From Siphonodentalium dalli (lineage: Eukaryota; Mollusca; Scaphopoda; Gadilida; Siphonodentaliidae): a DNA stretch of 64,000 nt. Positions 23,586 to 57,058 of this stretch are shown here, piece after piece. The position numbers and the translations under genes were made by a program. Within the stretch, counting starts at the first letter, position 1, and each line of letters starts with the position of its first letter. Under the pieces are notes generated by a model that made no database searches, was not told where the DNA came from, and was given only the letters and a program-made list of their open reading frames with translations. The DNA lies in assembly GCA_032622095.1 (NCBI GenBank), contig CP136066.1:100521319-100585318 (forward strand), read 5' to 3'.

Positions 23586-24401
23586 CTAGGTGTTCATAAC
23601 AGTGACATTGCTATTGAACACACATCTCTGTTTTTTAGATGCACTCGGCGCAGTCCGACAGATTGATTTCAGGTTCAAGTTTGATTGTTCATTGCTGCCA
23701 TCATTTGTAAAATCTCTACCATGCATGTTATACGTGCTTAGACATGTTTCTAATGAATGCTTTTTAATGGGATTTTTCACAGCCGAGTAACTTCTAAACA
23801 TTGTGGGGTCGCCATTTACTGTTGAATGCCGCTTCCCAGATTCGTGAGGCTTTAGTGATGGACTTGATGTTGATTGGTTGAAAAAAGGATTATCATGGTG
23901 ATTAACTGCCACCCTCCGCTTCCTCTCGCAGCCACCCGTGCTATGCATCTTGAAAGGAGCCACCGTCACCCTCCGCCTCCTCTCACAGCCACCCGTGCTA
24001 TGCATCTTGAAAGGAGCCAAGTTGAAGATATCGTCAACTTTAGCATGTGTAGAATCGTAGATAGAGTTACCATTTCTTTGATTTTCATCTGTTGCCAATA
24101 TGGGTTCTAATTCTGTTAATTCGAGGCATTGCGGTGAGGATGAACATCGTTTCCATGGATACCCGACTTGTTCTATATTGAAGTTAGTTTGACTGCCACC
24201 GATACAGGCATTATCCCTATCAACGAGCACGAATGCTGAATTCTTTCTGACAGCATTGTTCATGTCCCTGGAATAACTGGCTGTTGAGATGTTGAGGTAG
24301 AGAAGTGGGTCCAACACTGTCTTCAGCATAGCAAGCAGTCCAGCGTATTCTATCAAAGAAGTGGGAACAGGAACCTCACCCAGGTGCAACAATGAAGAAA
24401 C
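23586..24401 (-). CDS. GPCR final exon: TM7 and cytoplasmic tail
   Basis: Reading the minus strand, a TATATTTCAAG acceptor ends at 24402 and the exon opens in phase 0, running 271 codons to a TGA/TAG/TAA-bounded end at 23586. It begins with a short extracellular segment and a hydrophobic helix ending KTVLDPLLYLN, the D-P-x-x-Y form of the class A N-P-x-x-Y motif. A tail of about 220 residues follows, rich in Ser, Asn and basic residues. A 19-residue unit (APFKMHSTGGCER...) is repeated twice in the tail at about 23905-24018. The exon lacks TM1-6 and fits in phase and topology with the exons ending at 51175 and 56336, some 27 and 32 kb upstream. An in-frame ATG at 24458 is probably intronic. 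The ligand is unknown. Confidence 0.75.
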   Translation of the reverse strand, partial: VSSLLHLGEVPVPTSLIEYAGLLAMLKTVLDPLLYLNISTASYSRDMNNAVRKNSAFVLVDRDNACIGGSQTNFNIEQVGYPWKRCSSSPQCLELTELEPILATDENQRNGNSIYDSTHAKVDDIFNLAPFKMHSTGGCERRRRVTVAPFKMHSTGGCERKRRVAVNHHDNPFFNQSTSSPSLKPHESGKRHSTVNGDPTMFRSYSAVKNPIKKHSLETCLSTYNMHGRDFTNDGSNEQSNLNLKSICRTAPSASKKQRCVFNSNVTVMNT

Positions 24402-24458
24402 CTTGAAATATAGGAACATAATCTTTTTTAATGCATGGACTTTGACCTGTAGTATCAT

Positions 24459-25913
24459 GTGATTAACTCACATACTAAATTTGAAGCTATCGTGTAATCA
24501 TAACTTGAGTTATACAGCGACAAAATAATTGGCAAATTCTAAGTCGAAAAGGGGCATAACTTTGTGAGAATTGGGGAACGAATCCACATTTGAACTTAAC
24601 CTGTATTTCCATGTGGTAGCAGGGGATCTCTAATGAGTTGCAATTATATACAAATTTAGTAGATGAGGTTATAACTTTTGTATAAAATTGTGACGAATTT
24701 GAGACCCATTTTCATCACATAATCTCACTTTAGCAATGAAAAATGATCTTGAAACAGCTGGGGTTAATACAAATTATTATTGATTTCCTTATCACAACCA
24801 AAGAGGAAGTAAAGACACCTTCAAGAAAGAAAAAAATATAGTTCCATTTTAAATATATCTTTTAATGTTGACAAAATTGTTCAACCACCCTTATCACCCA
24901 TGTTTATCTCACAGTCAACACTAAATAACCCAACACAAATCCAACACAAATCAATTATCATAACTATATTCTAATTAACATATTAATAAGGTTTTGACAT
25001 CGATATCATTGCGCTAAGCTCTTACGTCACTGCGTGTGCCGATAATACACATGCGTCTTAATAAAAAATAAGAGACCTGGTTTAGGTGATAATTATATGT
25101 GATAAATCCACTTACTAAATTTGAAAGCTATATGATGACAATAGCTTGAGTTATTCGGCAATAAATAATCAGCGAATTCTAAGTAAGAAAGCGGCATAAC
25201 TACACCAGAAATGGTCGGACCGGACCCGATATGGAGGCCACATACCAAATTTCATCAACTTCTGTCAAATACTATTAAAGTTATCATCCGGTAACAAATG
25301 GTTGTGATGGCCATATACCTGCCAAAAGACACTTGTGGGGTGCATTATATTGTTATCTCGACCGGAGAATTGTTTTTTAAAGAGAAAATGTTTGTTGCTC
25401 GGATGATAACTTGAATAGTATTCGACATTAGTTTGTTTTCATTTCAAATCATTGACTTCCGGTACTCCCATAGGCTCAGTCCCATTGACTTAGAAAAGTT
25501 TTGGATTTTTTTTTTGTGGATGCTTTTTTCCCTGGAGTTGTGTTCCTTCTTAGCAAAGTTTGGTTTGACTGACGAAACACTCGACAAAAGCCATCTTAGA
25601 TGTTAAGGTTGCGTTTCATTTTCTACCCTTTTTTGGGTTTCTGCAATCATTCGAACAAATATGAACCAATTTGAATATTTTTTTCTGTACAAGCTTCTTG
25701 CAACAACATATCGATATTATTAATCCAAATTTTTCTTTAAGGTTAAAAATCTGTTTTGTTGGGTTTACGGATAATGCGGGTTGAATTTGCCATGGTGGGG
25801 GTATGCTAGCACGCGACTGCACACCTCTTGTTCCATTTGCACCCCTTGCACCTCAGTGCGCAGGCCTAATTAATATCCTATATATATTCATAAACCATGG
25901 TTCTGTATTCCCG
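24459..25913. repeat. GPCR intron with diverged minisatellite units
   Basis: Blocks near 24450-24570 and 25085-25215 share ACTAAATTTGAA(A)GCTAT, AACTTGAGTTAT-like text, GCGAATTCTAAGT and GGGGCATAACT. This is the same style as the Helitron cores elsewhere. The rest is AT-rich with no recognised feature. Confidence 0.5.
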
Positions 25914-27200
25914 GTATGAGAACATTCAGATATTTTAACCTGAAAAATTGCATAAATCCTAACATTCTAGTAGTCTAACTCCAGACAATGCACACGGCTA
26001 CGGGCAAGAGACCAGGACACACCAGGCTGACCATGGCTGTTCGGCCCGGTGCGAGAAAATTTTGAAACCTATACAAGAAAATCGCAAATCCTAGCATCTA
26101 GACTGGCCTGAACTGAAGCTTTCCTATAGTGTTGGATATTTCAAACCTCATACTGCCCCTCAGGTTGTAAAATAAATCAATAAATAATAAAAATTAATAG
26201 TCTCAAATTGAGTGTTCGTACTATTACACCACAAACCCCCACGAATTATGTGTCATAAAATACCTTTGCATACATAAATCCCTCTTATGTCACATTTATA
26301 GATTTTATTATTTCACTACTATCACACTATTTTATTAATATACATTACTATAACGTACTATTGCGAATTTCCCCGTTAAACTGCGCTATAAAATACACAG
26401 CTGCTAAACGGAAACAAACTGATGTCTTTAATTTTTGCCTGGGCGATGATGGGAAGACGGCCATAAGGTCACATCACCGCCCGGATTCTGTGTGTACACT
26501 GTATTTGTATTTCTATTGTTCACCTTGTATTTTATAAATGCTATATGTACGTGTACATGCCTTATTCAATAAATTATTCATAATATATTGTTTTGTTAAT
26601 CTTATTAGCAGTTTTGTATTGGCTACGGGCGAGGGACAATGAAACACCGGGCCGACCATGGTTTGGCCCAGTGTGCGAAAATTTTGAAATCTGAACAAGA
26701 AAATCGCAAAATCCTAGCATCTATACTAGCCTCAAGCCTTCCTAGAGTTGGTGATTTTAAACCTGACCCCCACTTAGGTTGGAAAATTTCCAACTGATGA
26801 CAATTCCAATGACAATGTTGACCAAATGTATGACAATATTGTTTTCTTAAATTAACTAGCAGTTTTTGACTGGCCACAGGTGAGGGACGTACCAGGACAC
26901 ACACTTTCCAAGTGTTGGAAATTTCCAACCTGTCACCCCCCCCCCCCTAAGGTTGGAAAATTTCCAACTGATGACCATTTCAGTCAAAAAATTTGACCGA
27001 AAATATGCAAATATTGGTCCAAAAAGAATTACTTCCCCCAATAAATTGTTTGAAAATCAAACTACAAGAACATTTTCAACCTATTGTTGGTGTGAAATTT
27101 CCAACTATTGTTTTGGCATTATGAAATTTCCAAATGTTGTAAATTTTGACCAAAGTTGGGGGTGAGACAAACCCCCACCCATGTCGCCACCACGTCTCTG
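25914..27200. repeat. hAT-related repeat rich in GTTGGAAATTTCCAAC
   Basis: The block 25914-26160 is repeated directly at 45176-45425 (AGGTATGAGAACATTCAGAT, GGACACACC(A/G)GGCTGACCA). Further right, GGTTGGAAAATTTCCAAC and close variants recur many times. The right end CCACGTCTCTG (27190-27200) equals the right terminus of the bounded hAT-like element at 45081-46055. The left end is not resolved. Confidence 0.6.
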
Positions 27201-27207
27201 TGTGGAA

Positions 27208-28330
27208 CCTGACCTATCAAAAGCTTTTGATACAATAAATCATAAAATAATGCTTAGCAAACTTGAACATTCTGGATATCGAGGGGTTGCACTGAATTGG
27301 TTTTGTAGCTATTTATCAGATAGGAACCAATCAGTACAATGTGATTGTTAAAAATAGTCAGATACATTTTCCCGTGGGGTGCCTCAGGGATCAGTTCTTG
27401 GTCCCCTTCTCTTACTCATATACATGACTGATTTGCCTAACATATGTAAAGATCTGAAATTGATACTCTTTGCAGATGAAACTAATGCCTTTTATTTGAA
27501 TAGCGACAATGGAAGGCTGTATGAGAAAGTAAACACTGAGATGAATACAATGTGTGAATGGTTCTCAGCTAACAAACTGTCACTCAATCTTGAAAAAACT
27601 AACTATTTGCTTTTTACAAATATTGACCTTAAAAAGGAGAACATTCTCTCAGCTGAACTAGAAATTAAAGGAGGAGTGATAAACAGTGTAAAAAACCCTA
27701 ATTTCATTGGTATAAACATTGAAGAAATTTTTTCCTGGGATATACATATTGATCCAATCGCCTCAAAGCTTTGTAGAAGCAATCGCCTCAAAGCTTTCCA
27801 GAATCATGGGAGTAATGAGGAAAGTCAGTGAATTTGTTCCACGGAAAACTATGAAGAATCTTTATTCCACGCTTATTCTTCCACATCTGACCTGCTGCAA
27901 TGAGATATGGAATGTAACAATACAAAAACATCTCGGAAAAATACAGAATAAGATAATAGCAACCTTATGTTATAGAAAAGTAGATGTTAATAACATCTGT
28001 AAAGAAAACAATCTTTTATTAATTAGGGATATCGGGAAAATGCAGAGTCCCAAAATCCTTATCACTGTTCACTAAGTTGAATGAAATTCATAACCATTAC
28101 ACTCGATTTAAAGAAAACTCAAATCTATATTGCAAATTACAGGAGAATAACTAAAGCAAGGAAAACTATATCAACCAGAGCAAGATGAATGTGGAATGAA
28201 CTATCAAGTGACTGCAAGCTCAGAATTGAAAATGTCCAAACCTATCGTTAATATCTGAAGAAGTACTTCATGAATAAGTACAACACCCAGCTGCTTTATT
28301 ATATGTGGTTATTCATCACCCTGACCCAAA
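27208..28330 (+). pseudogene. LINE reverse transcriptase relic
   Basis: A broken non-LTR retrotransposon of the CR1/L2 type. Readable pieces in order are [12 protein letters not shown] (RT motif A), [11 protein letters not shown], then GVPQGSVLGPLL, then LILFADETNAF, where the catalytic F/Y-A-D-D has become F-A-D-E. A thumb-like region with an ILPHLTCCNEIWN motif follows. An internal stop lies near 27350. A 25-base tandem duplication (27755-27797) shifts the frame. The 5' half including the endonuclease is missing. The element is dead and lies in the GPCR intron, on the opposite strand. Confidence 0.85.
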
Positions 28331-28544
28331 CTGAAGTTTCTTCATTGAGTACCTGAGTTAAACTATTTGAAAAAAGGAAGGAATAATATATCATAATTAT
28401 CTAATATCAAACCTACATTCCTATTTTTTTGTTTCCATGATCTCTGCTCAGTGTGCCCAGAAGCCAGTTTGCCAAAAAATCATTCCAAACAATGAATGCC
28501 AAACAAAAGCTGTCCTATACATGAGTGATAAATCCATACACCTA

Positions 28545-28745
28545 GCAATATCTGTATCTCCGTCAAAGGTATCTTGCCCACTGAACTATATGGTATATTA
28601 TCCCAAGTAGGAGGGGTTAACTCTCTGAGTTGAAAAAAACGTACGGAAATTCTATGGTACATATCTTCTGTCATGTTCATGACCCGTGTATTCACGTGGT
28701 TTCTGACACGTAGTGAAAGAATCGCCATATTTTTTTCCCTCCTCA
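28545..28745 (-). repeat. Repeat family R5, copy also at 33185-33555
   Basis: GTATCTTGCCCACTGAAC, ATGGTATATTATCCCAAGTA, GGAGGGGTTAACTC and TGACCCGTGTATTCACGTGG recur in inverse at 33350-33510. The copy here is in the opposite orientation and lacks one end. No coding content. Confidence 0.75.
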
Positions 28746-29560
28746 CCAGGACGGGTGCAAAAAGAATCTCTCACAAAGAATACGAAGCTAAGTTGCAGTT
28801 TGTATAGCAAAAACAGTTTTGTTTTTGTTTTATACAAACAACATTATTTCTTTGCTTATAGTTGAAAATTATGTAACGATTCACATAAAGATTACGACGG
28901 TTTGTTCCGAATATAATAATATCGGAATCGGTTGACTCGTTTCGTTTTAACCGACTTTTGTCTTCCATAATTTTAATCGGTCAATGATTTAATATCCGTT
29001 TTCTGTGCAGACAATGCAACGTTTCTGGCCTATTAAAGGCAGAACATTCGAGGCACCATTGGATATGACTAAAGATGCTGATCGTTTTCTTTATAACAAA
29101 TCTATGGCATACAGGTGACGTGTTATTTAAGTTACCACGTGCGTTGACGGTGGTTAAAGGTATCACGAAATTAGGTGACTTATTTTCGAGTTCATTTTTT
29201 CGTTTGACGGCTTTCTTTATACGTTGACAATCATCGTCTGGTGTACAACTGACGGACAAAGCAGTGTTTAAACGCTTGTGAAATAGGCTGATAGGATTGT
29301 AAAATCCCGAATGTCACTTTGAACCTTTTTCACCCTGGATGATTAACAATGGGGCCGTTACTGCCTTGGTTGCCACATGGTAACATACCACAACAGGTGT
29401 ATTTGTGATTGTTCGCAATCACATTAATTACTTTCACAGGACTGCTTATCGAGGTAAGACCAGGTTCATGAATCGCCTTCCCCGTAGCTCCCCTTGAAGT
29501 CGCTTCCCTCGTTTCGAGGTCCCAAGAGTTGAGAACGAAAGTCGATATATAGGGTTCCTC
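28746..29560. other. Unassigned sequence with a 92-codon frame
   Basis: The minus-strand frame 28981-29259 ends in text with three cysteines (WCLECSAF...LHCLHRKR), faintly like a zinc-binding stub. I see no splice partners, homology or repeats, so it is not called a gene. Confidence 0.3.
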
Positions 29561-29564
29561 CAAT

Positions 29565-31275
29565 TGGCGTAATTAGCACTCGGGGCGATAGTCACACCAC
29601 ACAGGACGCGGGTTGGGGCTACCCATCGAACCCGTAGCTCACACGAGTTGCTTCCCCTAGGACACGGACAAACTCGCGGGGAAGGATCCAGAGACTTTTT
29701 GTTTGGGGACACCTGTTCTGTATTTGAGTATGTGCCCATATAAATTTGGATGTTAAAATATTCAGGACTGGATACTTGATTGTGCAAATAAAGGCTCCAT
29801 ATTATAGACTATATATCATCTGCGGGCTGATGATTTGCATTACTAGGACATTTTGTTGAATTGTAGAAAAATTCCTTGAAAATATGGAAGATCCAACTGG
29901 AATAAATACTATCTACATGGAATTTGGGGACATTTGGGTCTCTATAGTTTGGGCACCCAAACCTGTAACAGGTATCAAAACATCCCTGTATCCTTCTCTG
30001 ACTTGCCGATATATCGTGTTCCTCTAATTGGCGTAATTAGCGCTCGGGGCGATAGTCACACCAAACAGGCGCGGGTTGGGGCTACCCATTGAACCCATGA
30101 GTCACATTGGTGCGCTCCCTGGACTATCGAATGGGACGTCAATCTGCTTCTGCGGGTCGACCGTTGGCTGTTGACGTGCCCCGGGCGGCTGTGACCACTG
30201 AGCTCTACTAAAACACTCGACACACGCCGTCCATCGCTACAAGTCGTCATCTCGGGGTCAGCGCGGCTGGGGGATACACCCTCGGTGATCCCTGACCATG
30301 CTCTCCGGTGCCTTATGATCGTAGTGTGTGGAAATTTGGGCTAAAATTACTAGTCGAATGGCCATTTTACTTTGTCTCAATTCCAATTAGGAGACTTTTT
30401 CTCAATTTATTACATTTACGCAATTATTTGGCACCTGAAAGTTTATCCTCCATGCTTTCTGCCCCAGCTGGGCTTGGAATGGGATCACAGTTCACAGGCT
30501 TGTTTCCTCCTTATTATAAGTCCCCACTTCCGGGGGCTTGGCTGACAGGTTACTGGTCGCATTCTGGCCAACAGCTGCCAGTAACTTCGGGTTTGATTTT
30601 AAATGAAAACAAAAGATCTTATTCCCTGACGCCATTATAGCAGGAAGCTTGCTTGGGAACTGGTACCTACTAACCTCCCATCGCCAGTTCGGTCGGTTGG
30701 ATATCGGGATCGGTCCTGCTGCTGCTCCACCCCGAGATGTACAGGCTCTGGACATTCCTCCGGGGTCCCCAATGACCAGACCTCACATGCAATTAGAAAT
30801 GAAGCTTGTCGTGGTGTATTGTGCTGTTAACACTCCATCGACGGATGGAGATCAGGATCAGATCGAGCAGTCGCTCCAGCACGAGGTGAAAGGGCTTTCG
30901 ACATTCCTTTCGGGTCACCTTTACATGCGCTTACGAGGGAGCTCAGTTAGTTGTTCAGGGTTCTCTGATGCAGCCAAGCGCAGGAAGAAAATTAATGTCG
31001 AATTTTGATTAGCAAATAACCTCAGATTGACATGATTTGATAGCATTGTTCTACAATCATTTACAATTTAACAGAACATCAGAGTGCTTTCCCTTGTTTC
31101 GAGGGTTCCAAGGAAGCGATAGAAACCTTTACGACCAGGACACTGTCACTTGTCGATGTATAGTGTTCCCTTCATTGGCGTAATTAGCACTCAGGATGAT
31201 AGTCCCACCAAACAGGTCGCGGGTTGGGGCTACCCATCAAACCCATTGACCGCATTTGGTGGGCTTTCTGGACTA
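29565..31275. repeat. Three copies of a ~100 bp GC-richer repeat
   Basis: Near 29565, 30014 and 31171 the order TTGGCGTAATTAGC(A/G)CTC, GATAGTC(A/C)CACCA, CGCGGGTTGGGGCTACCCAT and (A/G)AACCC is repeated on the same strand. GTTCC(T/C)TC(T/C)AATTGGCG or a variant precedes it. The TGGCGTAATTAG and GGTTGGGGCTACC words are loosely A-box and B-box-like, so a tRNA-derived origin is possible but unproven. Frames between the copies (30308-30640, 30649-31008) are not recognised. Confidence 0.55.
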
Positions 31276-33020
31276 TTGACAGGGACTCCAAGTCGGATAC
31301 TACGGGACGACTGTTGGCATACCCTGGGACAGTCAAATGAGGAAATAGGATACAAGTTGCATGGCTTTTGTTAGCATTTGGGTAGCAACTTGCCCTGTGA
31401 TGCCGGTCAGTTTGTACCCTGCTTAACGTCGTCAGAGATGGGTGGTTATGCCATCGGACTGCACACTTGGCGACCTGGGTTCGACCATCCTGAGAGGTAT
31501 TCAACCATTTTACTGTTCTCGGGTTGGGATGTGTTCAACTTTTTGCTTTAGAAGTGGTTGCTTCTTTCCATGTTCCATCCAGCTCTTTCATGGTCACGGG
31601 CTTTGCTGGAGAATGTCTATAGTCATTCATATCACTAGATTAGTATATGACTCTCGCCCTTTCATTTTCCTGACTTTTTAAGACGTGTTCTGGACTGGTT
31701 CGGGTGCTCGATAGGGTAAATATTTACATCTCGATTTGGGACGCAAGAATCAGAGATCAACAAGCATACATGCTTTATCTCCGACCTCGCTGTGTTTCAG
31801 TAATAGTTACGAATGACATATATTTTGTCTTCAGGTTGCTTTCAGTGCTAACTCAACATGGATTTCACTTTTGTTGTCCAGTCATACATAGATGAGTCCA
31901 TTATCCATGGTTCGACATATGCTCATTTTCAGAACACTGTTGACACGAGGTCTCGTTCAGCACCCCACTCGGTCCTTTGCTGACCTCAGCGATTGCCAAT
32001 ACAGGATAATGTTGCACCTGTGGGGCAGCATATGAATCGTGTTGGGCACAATTCATAAAGTTTCATTACATACCTGCCGTCGGTTTCTGCTGGTTTTGGG
32101 CTTGTGCCACAATCCTGATGCCTCGTTAGTCCAATTTTTGTTTTGTGGATTTCCACCTTAACGATATTGGAATTTCGGTTCCTGGATGCCTTTCTGTCAT
32201 GGATTCAGTAGCCTGTAATTGGTCAGTTGGGTTTAACTGTGTGGGTGGGCATTTCCATATTTGGGAACGTCATCGGGGAAAAAATGTCATGGCTTATTAC
32301 ATCTTAGTCGGTCATATCTCGAACTCCAGGCTTCAAACTAAGTTTTCTGCTGTGAAACTCCAATTCTGAGCCATGTTCTTCATACGGCCTGAGCCTTGCA
32401 ATGTATGTCTGTGTAATACCCATTCGCTTCCCGGTCAGGCTATTGGTCACTGATACCTCCTCCTTATCGACAATGGCATGTCTCCAAGTAGTTGGTGTCG
32501 GGCCCTTTCTTGGGAGCTTGCAGCTGGTTTTTCATCGGGCTCTCATCGTGTACTGGGACACGGCCCAACCCACTCACGATTTGGGTCGGGGTGGGTTCTA
32601 TTGTTTTTAAGGGGTGTCTTCGTTATTACTTGCGGCTTTTGCTGCCTGGGTTAGCCTGTTAGGTGCGGTATTAGTATTTAGCCATCCCTGGGTTTATAAT
32701 ACCCGGCTGGGGATTTCTTGTCAACGGGTATTTTTCTATTTCCATTTCCTTCGACTTGGATGCTTCTCCCCTTTCGGGGGGGGGGGGGGGGGGGGGGTGT
32801 GTTACCCGTACCTTTCCCGGCAAGTACTAGGCTGATACATTATTAGCCCTAAGTTCCGATGCGAATGTCGTATCCGACTATCCATCTCCAGGTCTTCTGA
32901 AGCTATTTACTTTACTTGCAGGGGTCTTAAACTCTTTAAGTGGCCACTTTTTGTTCGTTTCTGAGTGCTGACAGGTATTAGTTTAGGATGGAATATTACA
33001 TTGGCTTATGGTCCTATTGT
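31276..33020. other. G+T-rich unassigned stretch with a 22-G run
   Basis: Several frames of 60-80 codons occur without motifs. The stretch contains a run of 22 G at 32776-32797. Texture is unlike the AT-rich surroundings and resembles the 7-9 kb patch, so a decayed large element is possible. Confidence 0.4.
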
Positions 33021-33024
33021 GCAT

Positions 33025-33095
33025 GTGTGTATATATATATATATGTATATACATATATATCTATATGTCTGTGCATGTGTATGTATATATTGTAG
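33025..33095. repeat. TA/TG microsatellite
   Basis: Alternating TATATA and TGTATG text, including GTGTATATATATATATATG. Ordinary low-complexity sequence. Confidence 0.85.
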
Positions 33096-33184
33096 GTTAT
33101 CAGGTCAATCCAGTTCTTTGATTCATATGCATAGCGGTGTTTTTGTTTCCTCGTGGCCTCCACCTGTTAGAAAATTCTATGCTT

Positions 33185-41416: not shown

Positions 41417-44400
41417 TAGGATAGGATAGGATAGGATATTTTATTTCAATATACACATATTAATACATGATACATTTGACAAATATTACATTGTATATTC
41501 GAGGGGGTGGCATAGTCAGGCTAGACTGTCTTACTGTCGCCCCCTTGAAGATGAAAATATGTTACGATAGGCGGTCAGGATTCATTGTACAATGCACGGC
41601 TAAATAATTATGTATCTCACAATGGTTGCATTTAACTGGATTATATGCATGGAGGATATACGTCTAGATAAATCGATTATTGGTTACTCGATGGTTTGTC
41701 TCTTTCTTGTCAGTGGGATGTTCCTTGAAAGTCGAGTAGGAATGTGTTGAGTGAGGTTCTGGATTGCGATATAGCGGAAGTCACTTATTGACGAGCTACC
41801 ACACAGTCGGGACATCTTTGATTGTTGCATTTAATTGTTGCAGCATATTTTTTAATGCAATCGGCATGTAAACGACGTTTGAATGTGTGCCTGGATTGGT
41901 ATGATGTAAATTTGTTATCTAAGTTGTTCCAGATGGTTGGATAAGAATGGAATGGTAGTTGTTGGGACCAAGATGTTCTTGGTTTTTTTTTAAATAGTGG
42001 GTGCTTTGGGTGTCTGGTTCGGTTTTGCGTTTCGTAAACATGTCGGTGAATGATTCTATTAAGCGCATATAATACCAATCATGCATGAAAACCGCCGCTT
42101 GTACTTTGTGGATGTCGTAGATTTTGAGTATATTTTCTTTTTTAAAAAGAGGTTCTGTGTGGCTTCTATATTTCTTATTACATAAAACTCGTATCGCGCG
42201 TTTTTGAAGCATGATTTTTTTTTAGACCGCTGGGACGTGTTCCCAAATTTGAACACCGTAGACAAGATGGCTTTGTATTAGAGCATAATATAATGTTTAA
42301 AGTGCGCTACCAGGAAAGAAGTGTTTAACTGTATTGATGTGGTATATGGCATTTACCATTTTAGAACAAACTGAGGACACATGTTTTTTAAAGGTCAGGT
42401 TTTCATCTATATGGATTCCTAAGAATTTTGTGGAGGATTCGTGCTCAAGATTTCCTATCTTATTTAGTTCCGTATTATTTAAGTAAACCTTTATGAAGTT
42501 CCATTTGTCATCATTGTTCTCTGTGTGTATTAGCATATAGTTGCTTTTTTTTGTATTGATCACTAACTTATTGCTACAGCACCAATCAAATATGTTGCGT
42601 AACTCATTATTCACATAACTTTCTACAAGGATGTTATTTTTTCCACCAGTTACTAGAGTCGTATCGTCCGCGTATGATAAGATATCCATGGTTGTCTAAT
42701 TGGACATATCGTTAACGTAAATTAAGAAAATTATCGGTCCCAGTATTGAACCCTGGGGCACTCCACACATCACTTCCGTTAATTTAGATTTGGTACCATT
42801 GAGTTCAACATATTGCCTTCTATTTTGCAGATAGCTCCGAAACCATGAGTATGCTGTGCCCCGTATGCCATAGTGATCTAGTTTATGAAGTAAAATATCG
42901 TGATTTATCGTATCAAATGCTTTTGCAAGGTCGAGGAATAGAGCTAAAGTGGAATCTCTTGTCATGGTGTCATTATTTGAGACAACTTGATCGAGGAGGT
43001 GTAATACAGGATGGAAGGTTGAATGATTAGGACGGAAGCCGTATTGGTGTTTATAGAGTATGTTTTGTTCATTTAAGAAGTCTAGTAATCGTTTATGCAT
43101 TATTTTTTCGAGAAGTTTCGAGATAGCTGTAAGAATGCTGATAGGTCTGTAGTTGGAGATTTCATGAGTGGTATTATTTTTGGGGATCGGGACTACTTTA
43201 GACATTTTCATTTTGTTAGGGACAATTCCATGCTCTAAGGACAAGTTAAAAATATGCAATAATGCTGGGGCTATCTCCTCAATTGTTTCCTTGATAAGTT
43301 TAGTTGATATACCATTGAAGTCCCTTGATACTTTCCCAGTCATAGAGAAACATGTGAGGATGATCTCCTGTATAGAGGTCGGAATTATTTTGAAATTGAT
43401 GTCGTCTGGTTTGCGGTTATGAAGAAAATCTGTAAAATGTGAGTCATTTTCATGTTCATTAAGTTTGCTGGTTTCCCGCCCAATTTTTGAGAAAAAGTCA
43501 TTGAACCTTTCCGATATGAGTTTGGAATTTTCAAGTTCTATTCCGTTTTCAGTAAAAGTCTTTGTGTTAATATTTGTGTTTCCATTTATCTTCAATGCAC
43601 CCTTAAGTATTTTCCATGTTTTCTTTAAGTTATTTTTATTTACTTCTAGAATATTTGTATCTATTATATATTTGGGAAGATCTGTGTGTGTGTGTGTCTG
43701 TGTGTGGTGTGTGTGTTCGCGATGAACTCGAAAATGGCCGAGCCGATTTCGATGAAACTTGGTATGTGGGGGTACTTTCGACCGGGGGTGGCATAGGCAT
43801 ATTAATTTGTCCGTGCGACGTGACCTTGACATTGAAATCGGGTAATTTCAAGGTCAAACGCCCGAATATCACGGGATTTCAATGAAACTTGGTATGTGGG
43901 GATACCTTCGGCCGGGGAGTGGCATACACCTATTAATTTGCCCGTACGACGTGACCTTGACCTTGAAATCGGGTCATTTCAAGGTCAAACGTCCGAATAT
44001 CACGGGATTTCGATGAAACTTGGTATGTGGGTGTACCTTCGGCCGGGGAGTCTCATAAGCATATTCATTTGCCCGTGCGACGTGACCTTGACCTTGAAAT
44101 CGGGTCAATTCAAGGTCAAATCGCCAATTTTGATGGGATTTCGACGAAATTTTATACACAGGGTTACTTTTGTCCACTGAGTGTTTTGGACGGGTCAAAT
44201 CGTGACCCCGATCTGACATTGACCTTCAAAATGATCAATTCAAGGTCAAATCGGGTAAAACCGGATGGATTTCGACGGGCACGTTTGTCGGGTACTTTTG
44301 TCCGGGCAGTGTTTTGGACTGGTCAAATCGTGACCCCACTTGACCTTCAAAATGGACAATTCAAGGCCAAAGCCCGGACGAAGTCGGGTCACCTTCTAGT

Positions 44401-44634: not shown

Positions 44635-44639
44635 AGAAG

Positions 44640-46874: not shown

Positions 46875-47034
46875 TTAATAACACAAAGAGGATAGTTAAT
46901 TTCTAATATTGATAATGACACATTTGCAATTGTCAACTATACTGAGCTGTTTTTTTCCCGAATGAAGAATAACCGGATCATGCTACACACATCAACAGTT
47001 ATTTCCCATCGCATGCTTGTTTTTCATGATAGTT

Positions 47035-47761: not shown

Positions 47762-47764
47762 TTA

Positions 47765-48910
47765 GGGTGCATTTACACTGATACAGAACTGTATACAGAT
47801 CTGTATGAAGTCACGTGTCGCGCATTACTGTGATCACAATATGATTACTAATAGTGAACGCGCGCTGATCAGTACTCTGGTAATTGACAATTCACTACGA
47901 GTCGTTTCAGTATAGGCCAGACATAAAAATGGATCTACCATCAGCAGACAACAGCGATATGATATGTGCCGCATGTATTTAAAGTGTATCCTTATACCAC
48001 TTGATAATGGTTCGAAGAAAGAATGAAAATCGCATAGGAATACACAATAAACAACAGTATACACAAATAGAGGCTAGAGAGCACACATATAGCTTTAGAT
48101 GGAGATTCCACCAATATTTAGGATTTCAGGTGATCAACTATATATATATATATATATATTGGTCTCCTGTTTGACACCATCTGGGCGGTGGCCATTTTGG
48201 ATCTGTATGGAATGGGTATCCACCCTACAACACCATTTATTTGACCAAATGTAGTAAAAATTTCCAACAGATGACAATTCCAATGACAATGTTGACCAAA
48301 TGTAGGACAATATTGTTTTATTAAATTATTTAGCAGTTTTTGACTGGCCACGGGGAGGGATCAGGACACAATCTTTCCAAGTGTCTGAAATTTCCAACCT
48401 GACAACCGCCCCCATGATAAGGTTTGAAAATTTCCAGCTGATGGCCATTCCAGCCCAAAATTTTGATAAAAAGTAGGAGATTGTGCAAATATTGGTCCGA
48501 AAACAATAACCCCCCCCCCCCCCAATAAAATGTTTGAAAATCAAACTACAAGATCATTTTCAACCTATTGTTGGTTTGGAAATTACAGCTAATGTCGTGT
48601 CAGGTATGAAATTTCCAACTGTTGAAAATTTTGACCAAAGTTTCCACGTCCCTGTCCGTGTTCAATATTCGAAATACACGGGTTGAAATGACAACGAAAA
48701 CTAAAACACATTCGCCAAGCCCGAGTAACAATTAATCAAAACAGATTTGCCTGTCGCAGTGCTTCGGCGTTGACCGTGACGTATAGCGGACACGATTTTT
48801 GCTCACACGAACTAATACCGTTTTCTTTCTGTGTGCATTTCTATATCAACCCGTTTACACTAGTCTGCGTGTAGATCTATGTGCAGTTCTATAGCAATGT
48901 AAATGCACCC
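47765..48910. mobile_element. PIF/Harbinger-like element, TTA target
   Basis: The ends GGGTGCATTTACAC and GTAAATGCACCC are inverse repeats. Looser pairing extends to about 48 bases (AGAACTG and AGATCT words on both sides). TTA flanks both ends (47762-47764, 48911-48913), the 3 bp target typical of PIF/Harbinger. The insertion splits a LINE relic. The interior carries a GTTGGAAATTTCC-type repeat (48200-48651) and a TA microsatellite (48140-48160). No transposase frame seen. Confidence 0.78.
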
Positions 48911-48913
48911 TTA

Positions 48914-49260
48914 GTCATTATGGGTAATTCAATTCAGGTTCGTTAAGAAAAACATAACTTAGTTGCCCTTGAACTCAAGTTCTCCTGTGCCTTTTTCATT
49001 TCCCCGTTGCAAGTGAAAATCAGACCAAGGTATTTCATTTCCCCGTTGCAAGTGGAAATCAGACCAAGGTATTTATACTTATCGAGGTCTTCCTTCAACA
49101 TAGAATGATTTGATCCTCTTTCGTTTTCATTTACGGGAGCACCACACATTTTGTTTTCTCGGTATTTATATGAAGATTATTGTCAGTTGCATATTGCTCA
49201 AATGGTTTTAAGCACGTTTGTAGCCCCAAGGGTGACTGTGATAACACAACTAAGTTTGTC
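48914..49260 (-). pseudogene. LINE relic, mid-RT piece
   Basis: Minus-strand frame PVNENERGSN, KEDLDKYKYLGL, CNGEMKKAQENLSS, ATKLCFS, then stops. This is the part after the catalytic YADD and before the thumb. A 45-base duplication of KYLGLI-CNGEM coding text is visible. It joins in the same frame to 47761 once the TTA-flanked insertion is taken out. A second copy lies at 53219-53580. Confidence 0.78.
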
Positions 49261-49319
49261 AGAACCAACGTAAGTTCGCCACCTTATTAAAGAGTAAAAC
49301 TATATAATTGAAGAAAGTG

Positions 49320-49700
49320 TAATTTTGAGACAGTGCAATTTTTTTTTATGATTGGATGGGATTCGAACCCCGGCCCATGACGACCAGCGCAGATGTGGCA
49401 CAGTAGCATGTTATATACATCTTCGAAACATGCCAAGCTTTATAACACAAGGAGCCTATTTTTAGAAGCAGTTTAATTTTGAGACAGTGCAAAATTAGTT
49501 TTTTTTTGTGGGGGATTGGGTGGGATTCGAACCCCGGCCCATGACGGCGATTGCGACTCAAAGTCCGACGTAAATACCACACTAGTTCGAATCCCACCCA
49601 ATCCCAAACAAATTTCGCACTGTTTCAAAATTACACTTGCTTCTAAAAAAAATTAGTCATATTGTGTGTTGTATAGTCCCAGACATGCTCAAAGAGCAAA
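49320..49700. repeat. Inverted tRNA-like repeat cluster
   Basis: GGGATTCGAACCCCGGCCCATGAC-type text occurs twice in one orientation (49367, 49524). GTTCGAATCCCACCC occurs in the other orientation (49585). Each is flanked by TTTTGAGACAGTGC or its inverse. GGTTCGAATCCC is a tRNA B-box word. Further out, CATGTTATATACATCTTCGA and its near-inverse at 49710-49735 also pair. A tRNA-derived SINE-like or foldback origin is likely; no complete cloverleaf is present. Confidence 0.55.
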
Positions 49701-49747
49701 GCTCGGCGTGTTTCGGAGACGTATATATAACATGCTACTTTGCCATA

Positions 49748-50393
49748 TCTCATATATATTTTTAAGACCTTTGTCTGTCTGTCTATATGTCTGTGTCTGT
49801 CTGTATGTCATTTATACAAATCTACGATTCTCGACCGATCGGGACGAAACTTGGTACGTGCGTGTAGTTTGACCAGGCGGTGGACGTTGTCGTATTGGCG
49901 AGCCCGTGCGGCGCCCGCTTCGCGCATGCGCAGACGAGATCTCGGAAACGGGTGGAGCTATCGACTTGAAATTTGCTATGTGAATGTATCTTGCCCCGGA
50001 TACGAATTTTATCGGGTCGCCGAGTCCGTGCGACGCAAGCTTCGCGCATGCGCAGACCAGATCTCGGAAACGGGTAGAGCTATCGACTTGAAATTTGGTT
50101 TTTGAATAGCCCGGACAACGTCGGGCTCATCAGACGAGATCTCGGAAACGGGTGGAGCTATCGACTTGAAATTTGGTATGTGATTGTATATTGACCCGGA
50201 TACGAATTTTATCGGGTCGCCGAGCCCGCGCGACGCCAGCTTCGCGCATGCGCAGACCAGATCTCGGAAACGGGTGGAGCTATCGACTTGAAATTTGTTT
50301 TTTGAATAGCCCGGACAACGTCGGGCTGGGTAGAGCTATCGACTTGAAATATGGTTTTTGAATAGCCCGGACAACGTCGGGCTCATCGGCTAG
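49748..50393 (+). mobile_element. Helitron, family H2, copy in duplication unit 1
   Basis: 5' TCTCATATATATTTTTAAG preceded by A (49747). 3' hairpin AGCCCGGACAACGTCGGGCT, spacer CATCGG, CTAG (50390-50393), then T. A GTCTGTCTGTCTATATGTCT microsatellite follows the 5' end. Then come tandem units of about 125 bp with GAGATCTCGGAAACGGGT, GAGCTATCGACTTGAAATT and CGGATACGAATTTTATCGGG. The 3' hairpin sequence is repeated internally at about 50108 and 50308. Confidence 0.88.
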
Positions 50394-50859
50394 TCTACTA
50401 TATATATATATAATTGAAGCCGATGTTCTAATTTCATGGACACCACAACCAATCCAGACATATATGAAGCATATGAAAAACAAATTACGAAATAATTTAA
50501 TATCTTCCAACAGACCATCATCGAATAGCATATCAGGAATTTGCATTTAATAAATTTCCCGATATTTCCAATTCTGATTCGGTCGCTGTTTCTGGATATA
50601 TTTATAATCCAGTTCAGTTTCTAGAATTCTTCCAACAAAATACTTTTCTTAACAAAGAAACCTATATTTTTCAGTCAACCTTTGAGCAAAATCAACCGGT
50701 TGTTGAATAGAAATAGTTTACTCAACACTTTAATCAACGTTGCTTGGTGGTATATACTTACACTATACGGTTGAGTAACGTTGCTTTGTGGTATACTTAC
50801 ACTACGGTTGAGTAATTGTTGAGTAAAATTTTAGTCAACGAGATTTTCAGAGTAGCAAC

Positions 50860-51153
50860 ACAGGGGCCTGTAACGCGCTCCGCTGCCCGCCCCTTTTGCA
50901 CTGTCCATATACGCCGCTTCTATATACGCGCCTGCTTCGCGTTAATTGTATACTATAATAAAGACAATTAACGTGAAGCAGGCGCGTATATCGGCAGTGC
51001 AAAAGAGGACGGAAAGCGGAACGCGTTACATGCCCCCGTGGTTAATGGTACTATAATAAGGACCATTAACGTGAAGCAGGCGCGTATATAGAAGCGGCGT
51101 ATATGGGGAGTGCATAAGGGGGCGGGCAGCGGAACGCGTTACAGGCCCCTGTG
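50860..51153. mobile_element. hAT-like foldback MITE beside the GPCR splice donor (copy 1)
   Basis: The 8-base GTAGCAAC flanks both sides (50852-50859, 51154-51161). The ends ACAGGGGCCTGTAACGCG and CGCGTTACAGGCCCCTGTG are inverse repeats. Further inverted words (GAAGCAGGCGCGTATA and TATACGCGCCTGCTTC) let most of it fold. It stops 14 bases from the receptor exon's donor, so the intron starts almost directly with this structure. Confidence 0.85.
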
Positions 51154-51174
51154 GTAGCAACTAGAAATACTCAC

Positions 51175-51897
51175 GTGTATCGGCAGAATGCAGACAATGT
51201 AGGTTACAGACAGGGCAATCGAAAGTTTAGCAAACTTCATCTGATTGGCCAATACGATGGTCGCACTATCCCACGTGTGAACTTCACCCCAAATAATAGA
51301 CTCAGTTTTGCTCACGGTGTGGTATATCGAACACACTGCCGTGCAGGGCACAGACACACTTAGAAGAACGCCAAAATGTATAAACATGTACGTCGCAGCT
51401 ATCCAATTAATCGCGTTTCTCGACGTAGCATACGGTGTGCATTTCAGTGATAGTTCATTGTCCATTGAAATGCCACTGCAAAATACGCAAATGACAATCG
51501 AAATTATCAACATGGCCAGCGTCAGCATTCTTACCGGGAATTTGTTCGCGTATTTCTTATGGAACGTAGGCATAAGTAGCGTCGACATCCGCTCAGTAGA
51601 AAGTAATGCCGAAATACCGCCAGTAAATGTGACGTAGAATATATTGTCCAAAGCGTTCGAGACACAGAGAATGGAAACGTTTCCCGGACTTTCGAATTTG
51701 ATGATCGTGGTTACCACACCAATAAGGCTGCATATTGCGTTCGTCGTGGAAAGAATTGACAAGATAAAATTGAATACCATCGATGCTCTTCGTCGTTTTT
51801 TCAACATAACGCACATGTACAAATTCAGAATACTGGCGCCCACGCGAATAGTTAGTGTTATCAAGCACAAAATAAGTGATTCGGAGTCTCTCGACAT
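51175..51897 (-). CDS. GPCR exon with TM1-TM6, copy 1
   Basis: 241 codons from ATG at 51897 to a donor CAC|GTGAGT (intron begins 51174), phase 0. Class A receptor features are TM1 with GASILN, a cytoplasmic KKRRRAS loop, TM2 (FNFILSILSTTNAICSLIG), a cysteine before TM3 (SILCVSN), S-T-E-R-M in place of D-R-Y at the end of TM3, an extracellular-loop cysteine (LKCTPY), TM4-TM5, and TM6 ending IVCILPIH. Reading on past the donor gives only 11 intronic codons. The missing TM7 and tail are supplied in matching phase by the exon 23586-24401. The TM2 aspartate and the usual TM4 tryptophan are absent, so the subfamily is unclear. Near-identical to 56336-57058. Confidence 0.85.
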
Positions 51898-53218
51898 GGT
51901 CTAGCTTCTCCTCGGAAATGTCGAATGGCCAGAAAAAAAAAGCGTGGCATATAGATCACCGATTATGTTCGAAGAAGTTGACACATATGGACAGGTGACA
52001 ACAATCTTTCCGCGAACGTACGCGATGCTGCAATTTTCGCACGGAAGAAAGATTTAGCACATAATACAAGCCGCAGAACGCGATAATATTTGACGTAGGT
52101 TCCATTATTTTTATAGAGCCACTCCGATTTGACGCCAAATAATTCAGCATTTAATCAACCAGATATCCGCTTACTAGGCAAAAGAAAATGAAGAATACTT
52201 GAAATGACCGCCATTCATATTTCAGAGTCATCGCGTCAATCCACAGAATCACTCACAATGCCCTTATAAAATGTCCCATGGTTTTCTATAGCAGCTGTAT
52301 ATGGTAACATTGGTACGCATGGTTTTACCGTATATAGGTACCATTGTATAATTGTGTCTAATTTGTGTGGTATTTGCATACCATGTTTGGTGCTACCATA
52401 GTTTTTGTAGTAAAAATATTGTTAAAGCAATGAATCTCACATCTGCGTAACCATGGTCTTTAATTTATGTATAATTTACCATGGATTGTGTGGAAAACCA
52501 TGCATATTTAGAACTATATAGTGAATCAACAGCTCACCATAGTTAAAGTATGGTTTTACTACGATGACTAGGGTACTGATATTTCCAATGACAATGTTGA
52601 CCAAATGTAGGACAATATTGTTTTATTAAATTATCTAGCAGTTTTTGACTGGCCACGGGGAGGGATCAGGACACAATCTTTCCAAGTGTCTGAAATTTCC
52701 AACCTGACACCCGCCCCCATGATAAGGTTGGAAAATTTCCAGCTGATGGTCATTCCAGCCCAAAATTTTGATAAAAAGTAGGAGATTGTGCAAATATTGG
52801 TCCGAAAACAATAACCCCCCCCCCCAATAAAATTTTGAAAATCAAACTACAAGATCATTTTCAACCTATTGTTAGTTTGGAAATTACAGCTAATGTCGTG
52901 TCAGGTATGAAATTTCCAACTGTTGAAAATTTTGACCAAAGTTTCCACGTCCCTGTCCGTGTTCAATATTCGAAATACACGGGTTGAAATGACAACGAAA
53001 ACTAAAACACATTCGCCAAGCCCGAGTAACAATTAATCAAAACAGATTTGCCTGTCGCAGTGCTTCGACGTTGACCGTGACGTATAGCGGACACGATTTT
53101 TGCTCACACGAACTAATACCGTTTTCTTTCTGTGTGCATTTCTATATCAACCCTTTTACACTAGTCTGCGTGTAGATCTGTGTGCAGTTCTATAGCAATG
53201 TAAATGCACCCTTAGTCA

Positions 53219-53580
53219 TTGTGGGTAATTCAATTCAGGTTCGTTAAGAAAAACATAACTTAGTTGCCTTTGAACTCAAGTTCTCCTGTGCCTTTTTCAT
53301 TTCCCCGTTGCAAGTGAAAATCAGACCAAGGTATTTCATTTCCCCGTTGCAAGTGGAAATCAGACCAAGGTATTTATACTTATCGAGGTCTTCCTTCAAC
53401 ATAGAATTATTTGATCCTCTTTCGTTTTCATTTACGGGAGCCTCACACATTTTGTTTTCTCGGTATTTATATGAAGATTATTGTCAGTTGCATATTGCTC
53501 AAATGGTTTTAAGCACGTTTGTAGCCCCAAGGGTGACTGTGATAACACAACTAAGTTTGTCAGAACCAACGTAAGTTCGC
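53219..53580 (-). pseudogene. LINE relic, duplicated copy
   Basis: The duplication partner of 48914-49260, with a handful of substitutions (for example a G to T change in the NHSML/NNSML codon and one in the CGAPVN/CEAPVN codon). Here the rest of the LINE is absent because the duplicated block started inside the TTA-flanked insertion. Confidence 0.78.
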
Positions 53581-53644
53581 CACCTTATTAAAGAGTAAAA
53601 CTATATAATTGAAGAAAGTGTAATTTTGAGACAGTGCAATTTTT

Positions 53645-54000
53645 TTTTATGATTGGATGGGATTCGAACCTCGGCCCATGACGACCAGCGCAGATGTGGC
53701 ACAGTAGCATGTTATATACATCTTCGAAACATGCCAAGCTTTATAACACAAGGAGCCTATTTTTAGAAGCAGTTTAATTTTGAGACAGTGCAAAATTAGT
53801 TTTTTTTGTGTGGGGGATTGGGTGGGATTCGAACCCCGGCCCATGACGGCGATTGCGACTAAAAGTCCGACGTAAATACCACACTAGTTCGAATCCCACC
53901 CAATCCCAAACAAATTTCGCACTGTTTCAAAATTACACTTGCTTCTAACAAAAATATAGTCATATTGTGTGTTGTATAGTCCCAGACATGCTCAAAGAGC
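53645..54000. repeat. Inverted tRNA-like repeat cluster, copy 2
   Basis: Duplicate of 49320-49700, with GATTCGAACC(T/C)CGGCCC twice and AGTTCGAATCCCACCC in inverse. Small indels occur in the T-runs. Confidence 0.55.
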
Positions 54001-54055
54001 AAAGCTCGGCGTGTTTCGGAGACGTATATATAACGTTACATGCTACTTTGCCATA

Positions 54056-54828
54056 TCTCATATATATTTTTAAGACCTTTGTCTGTCTGTCTGTCTGTCT
54101 GTATGTCTGTCTGTATGTCTGTCATTTATACAAATCTACGATTCTCGACCGATCGGGACGAAACTTGGTACGTGCGTGTAGTTTGACCAGGCTGTGGACG
54201 TTGTCGTATTGGCGAGCCCGTGCGGCGCCCGCTTCGCGCATGCGCAGACGAGATCTCGGAAACGGGTGGAGCTATCGACTTGAAATTTGCTATGTGAATG
54301 TATCTTGCCCCGGATACGAATTTTATCGGGTCGCCGAGCCCGTGCGACGCCAGCTTCGCGCATGCGCAGACGAGATCTCGGAAACGGGTGGAGCTATCGA
54401 CTTGAAATTTGCTATGTGAATGTATCTTGCCCCGGATACGAATTTTATCGGGTCGCCGAGTCCGTGCGACGCAAGCTTCGCGCATGCGCAGACCAGATCT
54501 CGGAAACGGGTAGAGCTATCGACTTGAAATTTGGTTTTTGAATAGCCCGGACAACGTCGGGCTCATCAGACGAGATCTCGGAAACGGGTGGAGCTATCGA
54601 CTTGAAATTTGGTATGTGATTGTATATTGCCCCGGATACGAATTTTATCGGTCGCCGAGCCCGTGCGACGCCAGCTTCGCGCATGCGCAGACCAGATCTC
54701 GGAAACGGGTGGAGCTATCGACTTGAAATTTGTTTTTTGAATAGCCCGGACAACGTCGGGCTGGGTAGAGCTATCGACTTGAAATATGGTTTTTGAATAG
54801 CCCGGACAACGTCGGGCTCATCGGCTAG
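54056..54828 (+). mobile_element. Helitron, family H2, copy in duplication unit 2
   Basis: Same ends as 49748-50393 (A then TCTCATATATATTTTTAAG; hairpin, CATCGG, CTAG, T). It holds one more internal unit of 127 bp (extra GAGATCTCGGAAACGGGT to CCCGTGCGACGCCAGC) and a longer GTCTGTCTG run. The difference arose after the segmental duplication. Confidence 0.88.
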
Positions 54829-54845
54829 TCTACTATATATATATA

Positions 54846-55571
54846 CTAGAAGGTGACCCGACTTCGTCCGGGCTTTGACCTTGAATTGTCTATTTTGAAG
54901 GCCAAGGTCAAGTGGGGTCACGATTTGACCCGTCCAAAACACAGTGCCCGAACAAAAGTACCCGACAAAAGTACCCGTCGAAATCCATCCCGATTTGATT
55001 TCCACTGAAGTATATAAACGCGCCTCAAGTTTCAACGTAAAGATAAATTACCATCGGTGCCCGAGATATCGCCAAGACGTCTGAAACAGTCAAATGCATC
55101 GGCCGGGTAAGAGTTAACGTGATCTAACTGTATGACCTCTAACGACGTCATAGAAGTTACGCATTGTTTTTACCCTGATAGAAGATCGTACCAATTCTTC
55201 TTAATAATTGAGGCAGATAACTAAAACGGATACATACATATTATATATCGTTGGAAAGAGGAAACACGAAAGATTCTCATAGTGTCATTATTATGACTGG
55301 CATGTTATTATTCGCGCTGTTTCGAATCGATTTGTAAGCACCGAACTCAAATGAAAGTCCCGTAACACAGCGTAAAAACAGATTTGACCTCGGCACGTGA
55401 AAAGTTGACCTCGGATCTGAAAAGCAATAGGCCTATGTTCGTCCCCGGCCGAAAATACACCCACATACCAAGTTTCATCGAAATCGGCTGGGCCATTTTC
55501 GAGTCCATCGATTACTGACAGACAGACACACACACACACACACACACAGATCTTCCAAAATATATAATAGA
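54846..55571 (-). mobile_element. Helitron, family H1, with unique cargo, inserted after duplication
   Basis: Minus-strand 5' TCTATTATATATTTTGG at 55571, flanked by A (plus-strand T at 55572). The 3' hairpin then CTAG lies at 54846-54849, flanked by T. Copy 1 of the duplication shows the unoccupied site at about 50408. A CA microsatellite (55527-55548) and one repeat unit lie near the 5' end. Between about 55010 and 55435 the element carries sequence found nowhere else in the window. Confidence 0.92.
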
Positions 55572-56020
55572 TAATTGAAGCCGATGTTCTAATTTCATGG
55601 ACACCACAACCAATCCAGACATATATGAAGCATATGAAAAAGAAATTACGAAATAATTTAATATCTTCCAACAGACCATCATCGAATAGCATATCAGGAA
55701 TTTGCATTTAATAAATTTCCCGATATTTCCAATTCTGATTCGGTCGCTGTTTCTGGATATATTTATAATCCAGTTCAGTTTCGAGAATTCTTCCAACAAA
55801 ATACTTTTCTTAACAAAGAAACCTATATTTTTCAGTCAACCTTTGAGCAAAATCAACCGGTTGTTGAATAGAAATAGTTTACTCAACACTTTAATCAACG
55901 TTGCTTGGTGGTATATACTTACACTATACGGTTGAGTAACGTTGCTTTGTGGTATACTTACACTACGGTTGAGTAATTGTTGAGTAAAATTTTAGTCAAC
56001 GAGATTTTCAGAGTAGCAAC

Positions 56021-56314
56021 ACAGGGGCCTGTAACGCTCTCCGCTGCCCGCCCCTTTTGCACTGTCCATATACGCCGCTTCTATATACGCGCCTGCTTCG
56101 CGTTAATTGTATACTATAATAAGGACAATTAACGTGAAGCAGGCGCGTATATCGGCAGTGCAAAAGGGGACGGAAAGCGGAACGCGTTACATGCCCCTGT
56201 GGTTAATGGTACTATAATAAGGACCATTAACGTGAAGCAGGCGCGTATATAGAAGCGGCGTATATGGGCAGTGCATAAGGGGGAGGGCAGCGGAACGCGT
56301 CACAGCCCCCTGTG
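56021..56314. mobile_element. hAT-like foldback MITE beside the GPCR splice donor (copy 2)
   Basis: Duplicate of 50860-51153, again with GTAGCAAC on both sides (56013-56020, 56315-56322). Both are 294 bases, so the MITE was present before the segmental duplication. Confidence 0.85.
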
Positions 56315-56335
56315 GTAGCAACTAGAAATACTCAC

Positions 56336-57058
56336 GTGTATCGGCAGAATGCAGACAATGTAGGTTACAGACAGGGCAATCGAAAGTTTAGCAAACTTCA
56401 TCTGATTGGCCAATACGATGGTCGCACTATCCCACGTGTGAACTTCACCCCAAATAATAGACTCAGTTTTGCTCACGGTGTGGTATATCGAACACACTGC
56501 CGTGCAGGGCACAGACACACTTAGAAGAACGCCAAAATGTATAAACATGTACGTCGCAGCTATCCAATTAATCGCGTTTCTCGACGTAGCATACGGTGTG
56601 CATTTCAGTGATAGTTCATTGTCCATTGAAATGCCACTGCAAAATACGCAAATGACAATCGAAATTATCAACATGGCCAGCGTCAGCATTCTTACCGGGA
56701 ATTTGTTCGCGTATTTCTTATGGAACGTAGGCATAAGTAGCGTCGACATCCGCTCAGTAGAAAGTAATGCCGAAATACCGCCAGTAAATGTGACGTAGAA
56801 TATATTGTCCAAAGCGTTCGAGACACAGAGAAGGGAAACGTTTCCCGGACTTTCGAATTTGATGATCGTGGTTACCACACCAATAAGGCTGCATATTGCG
56901 TTCGTCGTGGAAAGAATTGACAAGATAAAATTGAATACCATCGATGCTCTTCGTCGTTTTTTCAACATAACGCACATGTACACATTCAGAATACTGGCGC
57001 CCACGCGAATAGTTAGTGTTATCAAGCACAAAATAAGTGATTCGGAGTCTCTCGACAT
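56336..57058 (-). CDS. GPCR exon with TM1-TM6, copy 2
   Basis: Same length, start and donor (CAC|GTGAGT, intron begins 56335) as 51175-51897. Only two residues differ: Val for Leu in TM1 (LNVYMC) and Leu for Ile before TM3 (VSLLCVSN). No TM7-coding exon lies between this exon and copy 1. Its transcript must therefore splice past copy 1 to 24401, or end prematurely. It is intact, so either it is used as an alternative first exon or the duplication is too recent for decay. Confidence 0.85.

Follow-up and report, generated by a model that had tools for sequence, protein, structure and literature searches.

Introduction

The gustatory receptor (Gr) proteins form a seven-transmembrane family of their own and are not of the rhodopsin type. 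In the account of Drosophila Gr39a cited here, large exons encoding six transmembrane (TM) segments are alternatively spliced to shared small exons for TM7 and the C-terminus, and these head exons have been gained and lost through exon duplication (PMC2204066). Here we describe a locus of the scaphopod mollusc Siphonodentalium dalli (assembly GCA_032622095.1, contig CP136066.1, positions 100,521,319 to 100,585,318; this whole stretch of 64,000 nucleotides is called the window, and coordinates refer to it unless a contig is named). In it, two near-identical exons for TM1-TM6, heads A and B, lie upstream of a single exon for TM7 and a long cytoplasmic tail, tail 1, of a predicted rhodopsin-family (class A) G-protein-coupled receptor (GPCR). 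The locus is like Gr39a, as characterized in the cited part of that work, in placing six-TM head exons before a shared TM7 exon (PMC2204066). Gr39a is described with three shared exons, four to five diverged heads and shown expression, whereas here there are one shared exon, two near-identical heads and a predicted product. Loci with variable first exons are known; this one is young and belongs to a receptor family for which we found none described.

The UGT1, GCNT2 and clustered protocadherin loci hold many first exons, which are older and diverged. The passages cited describe tandem first exons before a constant 3′ part in all three (PMC1885805, PMC3325998), which is also the arrangement found here, and, for UGT1, a promoter of its own before each first exon (PMC1885805). 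In the scaphopod locus, two homologous first exons that agree in donor phase lie upstream of one shared 3′ exon. It differs from these clusters in that its product would be a receptor of another type, and in that promoter choice, known there, is a prediction here.

The Aplysia candidate chemoreceptors AcCRa-c are described as rhodopsin-like and clustered in the genome, with a short N-terminus and E-R-x after TM3 (PMC2700072), and by that description the present locus resembles them in each of these points. In the cited passages they are, however, mostly single-exon, with an intron at ISLM/GLAV in AcCRa, and no shared tail is described (PMC2700072). Among the matches listed in a literature search for class A GPCRs with variable TM1-TM6 first exons, the only loci with this plan were those of insect gustatory receptors; this does not establish absence from print and is weak evidence for novelty of the plan in rhodopsin-type GPCRs.

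Exon structure of the locus

All three receptor exons of the window are on the minus strand; read on the plus strand in frame 1, their coordinates are crowded with stops. The initial annotation of this DNA carried no statement of strand, and the junctions it proposed, 51175 to 24401 and 56336 to 24401, imply the minus one. Head A, the candidate first coding exon (51175-51897), and head B, its second copy (56336-57058), are each open from the ATG to a CAC/GTGAGT donor (the slash marks the exon border) over 723 bases, or 241 codons, so that the donor is in phase 0. An in-frame stop precedes the head ATG (GCTAGACCATG), and each head lies inside a minus-strand open reading frame (ORF) of 253 codons. 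The two differ at 2 of the 723 bases, both differences being replacements (from A to B, L26V and I76L). Codon 26 sits in TM1 and codon 76 two residues before Cys78, which with Cys153 we take to be a candidate for the conserved disulphide.

The tail exon (23586-24401) begins at base 24401 behind a phase-0 acceptor, TTTCAAG/GTT, and encodes 271 residues, with TM7 carrying a DPLLY motif and a long cytoplasmic tail, before a TAG at 23588-23586. The coordinates and phases of the two intact head exons, their two-residue difference (in TM1 and before TM3) and the phase-0 acceptor and D-P-x-x-Y helix of the tail exon are all as initially annotated. Judged from the donor and acceptor, a minus-strand intron of 26,773 bases (24402-51174) would join head A to the tail; a predicted alternative intron of 31,934 bases (24402-56335) would join head B to it and skip head A. 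Within the tail exon we also observed a direct repeat with a 57-base period (23910-24019; 53 bases aligned at 96%), which doubles a basic cytoplasmic segment.

Other candidate tails were sought by scanning both strands of the window for a phase-0 acceptor followed by a hydrophobic D/N/S-P-x-x-Y/F segment above a hydropathy cut-off, a pattern by which a TM7 exon lacking that motif would be missed. Five rows were obtained on the minus strand, four of them overlapping versions of the tail exon and one a candidate at 24858, and none on the plus strand. No remnant of a tail was found between heads A and B. The proposal of a tail shared by both heads is supported in so far as no other convincing TM7 exon reachable by ordinary forward splicing was found in the window. 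A search of the whole genome (2.23 Gb, nine contigs, the window being at C6:100521319-100585318) gave three heads and two tail loci; in a wider search with head A, six of nine rows lay beyond the three heads, with E from 0.97 to 7.5, and were taken for chance. The earlier statement that only one TM7/tail exon is visible holds for the window and fails for the genome, where a further tail and a further head lie ~60-76 kb upstream.

Family assignment of the joined protein

Head and tail were spliced in silico at the predicted sites and compared with the Pfam 7tm_1 model (PF00001), whose cut-off is 30.5 bits. Head A joined to the tail gave 36.1 bits (E=6.5e-9) and spanned profile positions 2-260 of 260; head B with the same tail gave 35.9 bits, and the third head with the second tail (head C and tail 2, described below) 34.6 bits. 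The single exons did not reach the family: at E<=1 a head alone matched no 7tm_1 but only Srsx (E=0.15 and 0.10), the tail alone had no Pfam match at E up to 1, and a head read through past its donor had no Pfam match.

As controls, head A was joined to four tails with a shuffled TM7 and to the candidate at 24858. All five joins fell under the 7tm_1 cut-off. With the true tail the match gains ~7-12 bits, passes the cut-off and runs to the profile end. A point on the other side is that three of the five controls retained 24-29 bits from the head. Two of the shuffled joins were without a match, a third reached 28.8 bits over profile positions 2-228 and the fourth 25.3 bits over 2-254; the unrelated candidate at 24858 reached 24.1 bits (2-228) and did not extend the match past TM6. 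These values indicate that the head carries most of the 7tm_1 match, though HMMER filters drop the head alone.

In class A receptors the rules are D/E-R-Y and N/D-P-x-x-Y. The joined protein has E102-R103-M104 at the end of TM3, off the first rule in its third residue, and D272-P-L-L-Y276 in TM7. Its hydropathy profile, grouped by eye, assigns six hydrophobic regions to the head and one to the tail; the TM3 and TM7 peaks are weak (1.28-1.36), TM3 being the weakest of the head regions. In a PDB search the joined protein had one match, a GnRH-receptor chimera at E=0.019, which is not significant by itself. The alignment runs across the head-tail junction and the chimera also has an L-D-P-x-x-Y helix, so that we treat it as a lead rather than proof; head A alone gave no PDB match at E up to 1. 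An AlphaFold2 model of head A from single-sequence input was uninformative (mean predicted local distance difference test, pLDDT, 40.1; predicted template modelling score, pTM, 0.27). The claim that head and tail make up one rhodopsin-family receptor is upheld by the joined match, with its controls, and by the seven hydrophobic regions. An orphan rhodopsin-family (class A) receptor of no recognised subfamily is a well supported prediction for this gene.

Other families were considered. A nematode Srsx chemoreceptor was rejected, as the heads scored 11.9 and 12.5 bits against a PF10320 cut-off of 24.1. The insect Gr family, of which 7tm_7 is presumably the Pfam model, gave no match at E<=1 with single exons or E<=10 with the joined proteins. 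Kinship with prostanoid receptors, an idea suggested by an intron at the end of TM6 and by the D-P-x-x-Y motif, was supported by neither the literature search nor the PDB search and was dropped without a direct sequence test.

In a 7tm_1 survey of the same genome (147 of 1,534 candidates scored), 11 of the 150 listed matches stop at profile positions 226-234, three of these 11 containing stops (by eye). A break after TM6 may thus not be rare in this genome.

Two duplications at the locus

Self-BLAST placed the two heads in adjoining units, one of 4,313 bases with head A (48272-52584) and one of 5,197 bases with head B (52577-57773). These are gapless direct repeats whose edges share two bases at the join (by eye), which suggests end joining and not recombination between long repeats. 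The duplicated heads upstream of one tail, proposed at the outset, are in this way supported as a local direct duplication. Together with each head, DNA upstream of the ATG was copied, 687 bases in A and 715 in B. A stretch of ~715 bases in a TA run (54845-55560) is present in unit B only and is probably an interspersed element; most of it resembles, at 90% and inverted, a stretch in the intron of the paralogous gene. Just 3′ of both head donors (50860-51160 and 56020-56320) we noticed by eye CpG-rich repeated and inverted motifs, probably a small mobile element.

A second complete copy of the gene lies ~60 kb upstream in the same orientation. It has head C (C6:100638255-100637533; protein 97% identical) and tail 2 (C6:100620917-100621673; 91% identical over the first 145 residues), with the same donor and acceptor as the window gene, which supports the exon borders. 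The order along the minus strand is head C, tail 2, head B, head A, tail 1. Being upstream of heads A and B, tail 2 would be unable to serve them by ordinary forward splicing. It has one, not two, of the 57-base internal repeats and, with 209 residues, is 62 shorter than tail 1 with 271; a one-base difference near its 3′ end leads to a shorter and different C-terminus.

The stretch from 21791 to 64000 is collinear in pieces with the paralogous gene (C6:100619023 onward), mostly at 90-97% identity, with one piece at 86%, and is broken by insertions. Homology reaches ~0.7 kb past the window end, and the counterpart lies at ~97.7-123.6 kb in window coordinates. When block edges are defined by direct matches no shorter than 300 bases and no less than 88% identical, the paralogous block ends on both sides inside the 172,681 bases fetched, which contain no N. 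As judged from these alignments, the paralogous gene is a local whole-gene duplication in the same orientation. A megabase-scale haplotype duplication at this locus was ruled out, the paralogous block being bounded on both sides.

We propose that the ancestral gene would have consisted of a head exon (ATG and TM1-TM6), a long phase-0 intron and a tail exon (TM7 with DPLLY and the long cytoplasmic tail). The whole gene would have been copied nearby in the same orientation, each copy retaining head and tail, and one copy would later have duplicated a 4-5 kb block with the head exon and ~0.7 kb of upstream DNA, giving two heads and one tail. This order of events is deduced from divergence.

Possible use of the two head exons

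Heads A and B are more alike in the exon than in the DNA around it. The flanks differ by 1.42% (11/775), 1.46% (10/686) and 1.64% (30/1832), and the head exon by 0.28% (2/723), which is lower than in the two adjoining flanks (21/1461, p=0.012) and in all three aligned flanks (51/3293, p=0.0035). Within the 1.1 kb that could be aligned with C, the A-B comparison gave 2/723 in the exon vs. 8/356 in the flank (p=0.003) and the A-C comparison 10/723 vs. 15/356 (p=0.008). Seven of the eight A-B flank differences in the stretch shared with C are on the side of A and one is on that of B. An exon more alike than its flanks suggests that similarity has been maintained by selection or gene conversion.

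Each head also has, in its ~0.7 kb of copied upstream DNA, an element that we call TATA-like, located at -218 from the ATG in head A (52106-52115, minus strand) and at -217 in head B (57266-57275, minus strand). In head C it is found at -222 and has been kept even though C is without ~100 bases directly upstream. With the copies of heads A and B counted, the motif TATAAAA[AG] has seven occurrences on the minus strand of the window (64 kb), or ~0.03 per 300 bases. Two promoters, as initially suggested, are thus possible, although a T-run/AG just before each head ATG (see below) leaves room for one shared promoter; the mutually exclusive use of the heads that the suggestion included is a prediction.

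From the exon similarity and the kept splice sites we lean slightly towards both heads being used with the single tail. That they would be transcribed from two promoters, most likely each from its own copied one, is put forward more tentatively. The products would be two near-identical receptors, any difference lying in where and when they are made and not in ligand. The initial annotation, in speaking of two receptor heads, overstated that difference, as two conservative replacements are unlikely to give two specificities. With similar reserve, the locus may be seen as a Gr39a-type arrangement in a class A GPCR near its birth, with two separately switched receptors on one signalling tail. If both heads are used, the plan of six variable segments and a constant seventh known from insect gustatory receptors would extend to rhodopsin-type GPCRs, at a stage young enough to show how such a locus originates. 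The neighbouring duplicate of the whole gene would serve as a control, and a single receptor locus would then allow exon duplication to be set against duplication of an entire gene.

Several observations weigh against this preferred reading. The B-C exon is not significantly more alike than its flank (10/723 vs. 9/355, p=0.22). There are no silent differences between A and B (~170 sites), so that selection is not favoured over gene conversion; both A-B changes are replacements, and their small number could itself reflect gene conversion. Replacements show no depletion between the gene copies, with 8 replacements to 2 silent changes for A or B vs. C in the head and 11 to 2 for tail 1 vs. tail 2 (first 130 codons), and there is thus no sign of strong constraint. 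In both heads an upstream reading frame, 29 codons long and starting at -53 in A, 118 codons long and starting at -52 in B, overlaps the ATG and would hinder translation from a TATA-proximal start. Finally, any transcript that begins at head B or upstream of it has to skip head A.

Some of these points also speak for the rival that survives best, in which the duplication is a passenger: one head, either A, which is nearest to the tail, or B, would be spliced, and the other would have no role yet or give a truncated tailless product. The copies are young, with flanks 1.4-1.6% different and near-identical proteins, and young intact copies are expected even without a function; a head B transcript would have to pass the intact head A, and the replacements are not depleted. 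A head exon with 2/723 differences against 51/3293 in the flanks would, however, be unexpected for an unused copy without gene conversion, and donor, frame and upstream element have been kept in both copies. We regard this explanation as a serious but rather doubtful one. If only one head is used, the locus would be an ordinary young partial gene duplication.

Within the reading that both heads are used, one upstream promoter and a 5′ untranslated region (UTR) exon may be common to them, heads A and B being mutually exclusive internal exons. By eye, each head ATG is preceded by a T-run and then a first AG (CCGAG/GAG, ~-15), alike in A, B and C except for the length of the T-run and one neighbouring base. 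This could be a 3′ splice site. The heads would then follow a common 5′ UTR exon as internal exons and would depend on one shared promoter, and the upstream frames overlapping the heads would be removed by splicing. A 5′ exon was not identified, the search being confined to the duplicated block. The TATA-like element at ~-218 in all three heads, retained in C despite the upstream loss, also speaks for separate promoters, and we consider the shared one unlikely.

Still less probable is an assembly artefact in which two alleles, A and B, would have been assembled in tandem. Divergence of ~1.5%, as in the flanks, is within the allelic range of many invertebrates, and the 7tm_1 survey lists several pairs of matches, 0.4-7 Mb from each other and equal in score, that could be haplotypes retained elsewhere in the assembly. 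On the other side are the absence of N from the 172,681 bases around the locus, the clean join with two shared bases, and the gene-scale copy, which by the match thresholds given above ends on both sides inside the DNA fetched. That heads A and B would join another, unrelated TM7 exon and not that at 24401 is very improbable: the intron of 26.8 or 31.9 kb is long, its junctions are predicted and the scan is blind to a TM7 exon without the D/N/S-P-x-x-Y/F motif, but no other convincing minus-strand TM7 exon or remnant between the heads was found, the paralogous gene retains the same pair with the same splice sites, and the join reaches the end of the 7tm_1 profile.

Surrounding sequence and genome

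Between the two gene copies, at C6:100588798-100595849 (window coordinates 67480-74531), there is a 1.87 kb inverted repeat with arms at 67480-69352 and 72686-74531 that are 97.9% identical. A tandem array with a period of ~20 bases (68982-69567) is situated at its inner edge. Inside the window, ORFs at 61599-63866, 42297-43847 and 27358-28075 resemble, by eye, reverse transcriptases of non-LTR (long terminal repeat) retroelements.

Elsewhere in the genome, three 7tm_1 matches to profile positions 1-112, each with a TGA, occur within 15 kb at C2:222957945-222972369 and are possible repeated receptor head fragments. The 7tm_1 pairs with identical scores mentioned above are at C8:110.39/111.30, C2:233.15/233.73, C6:147.76/148.12 and C2:40.84/48.20 Mb. 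They may represent recent segmental duplications or retained haplotypes, and two of the four pairs are on opposite strands.

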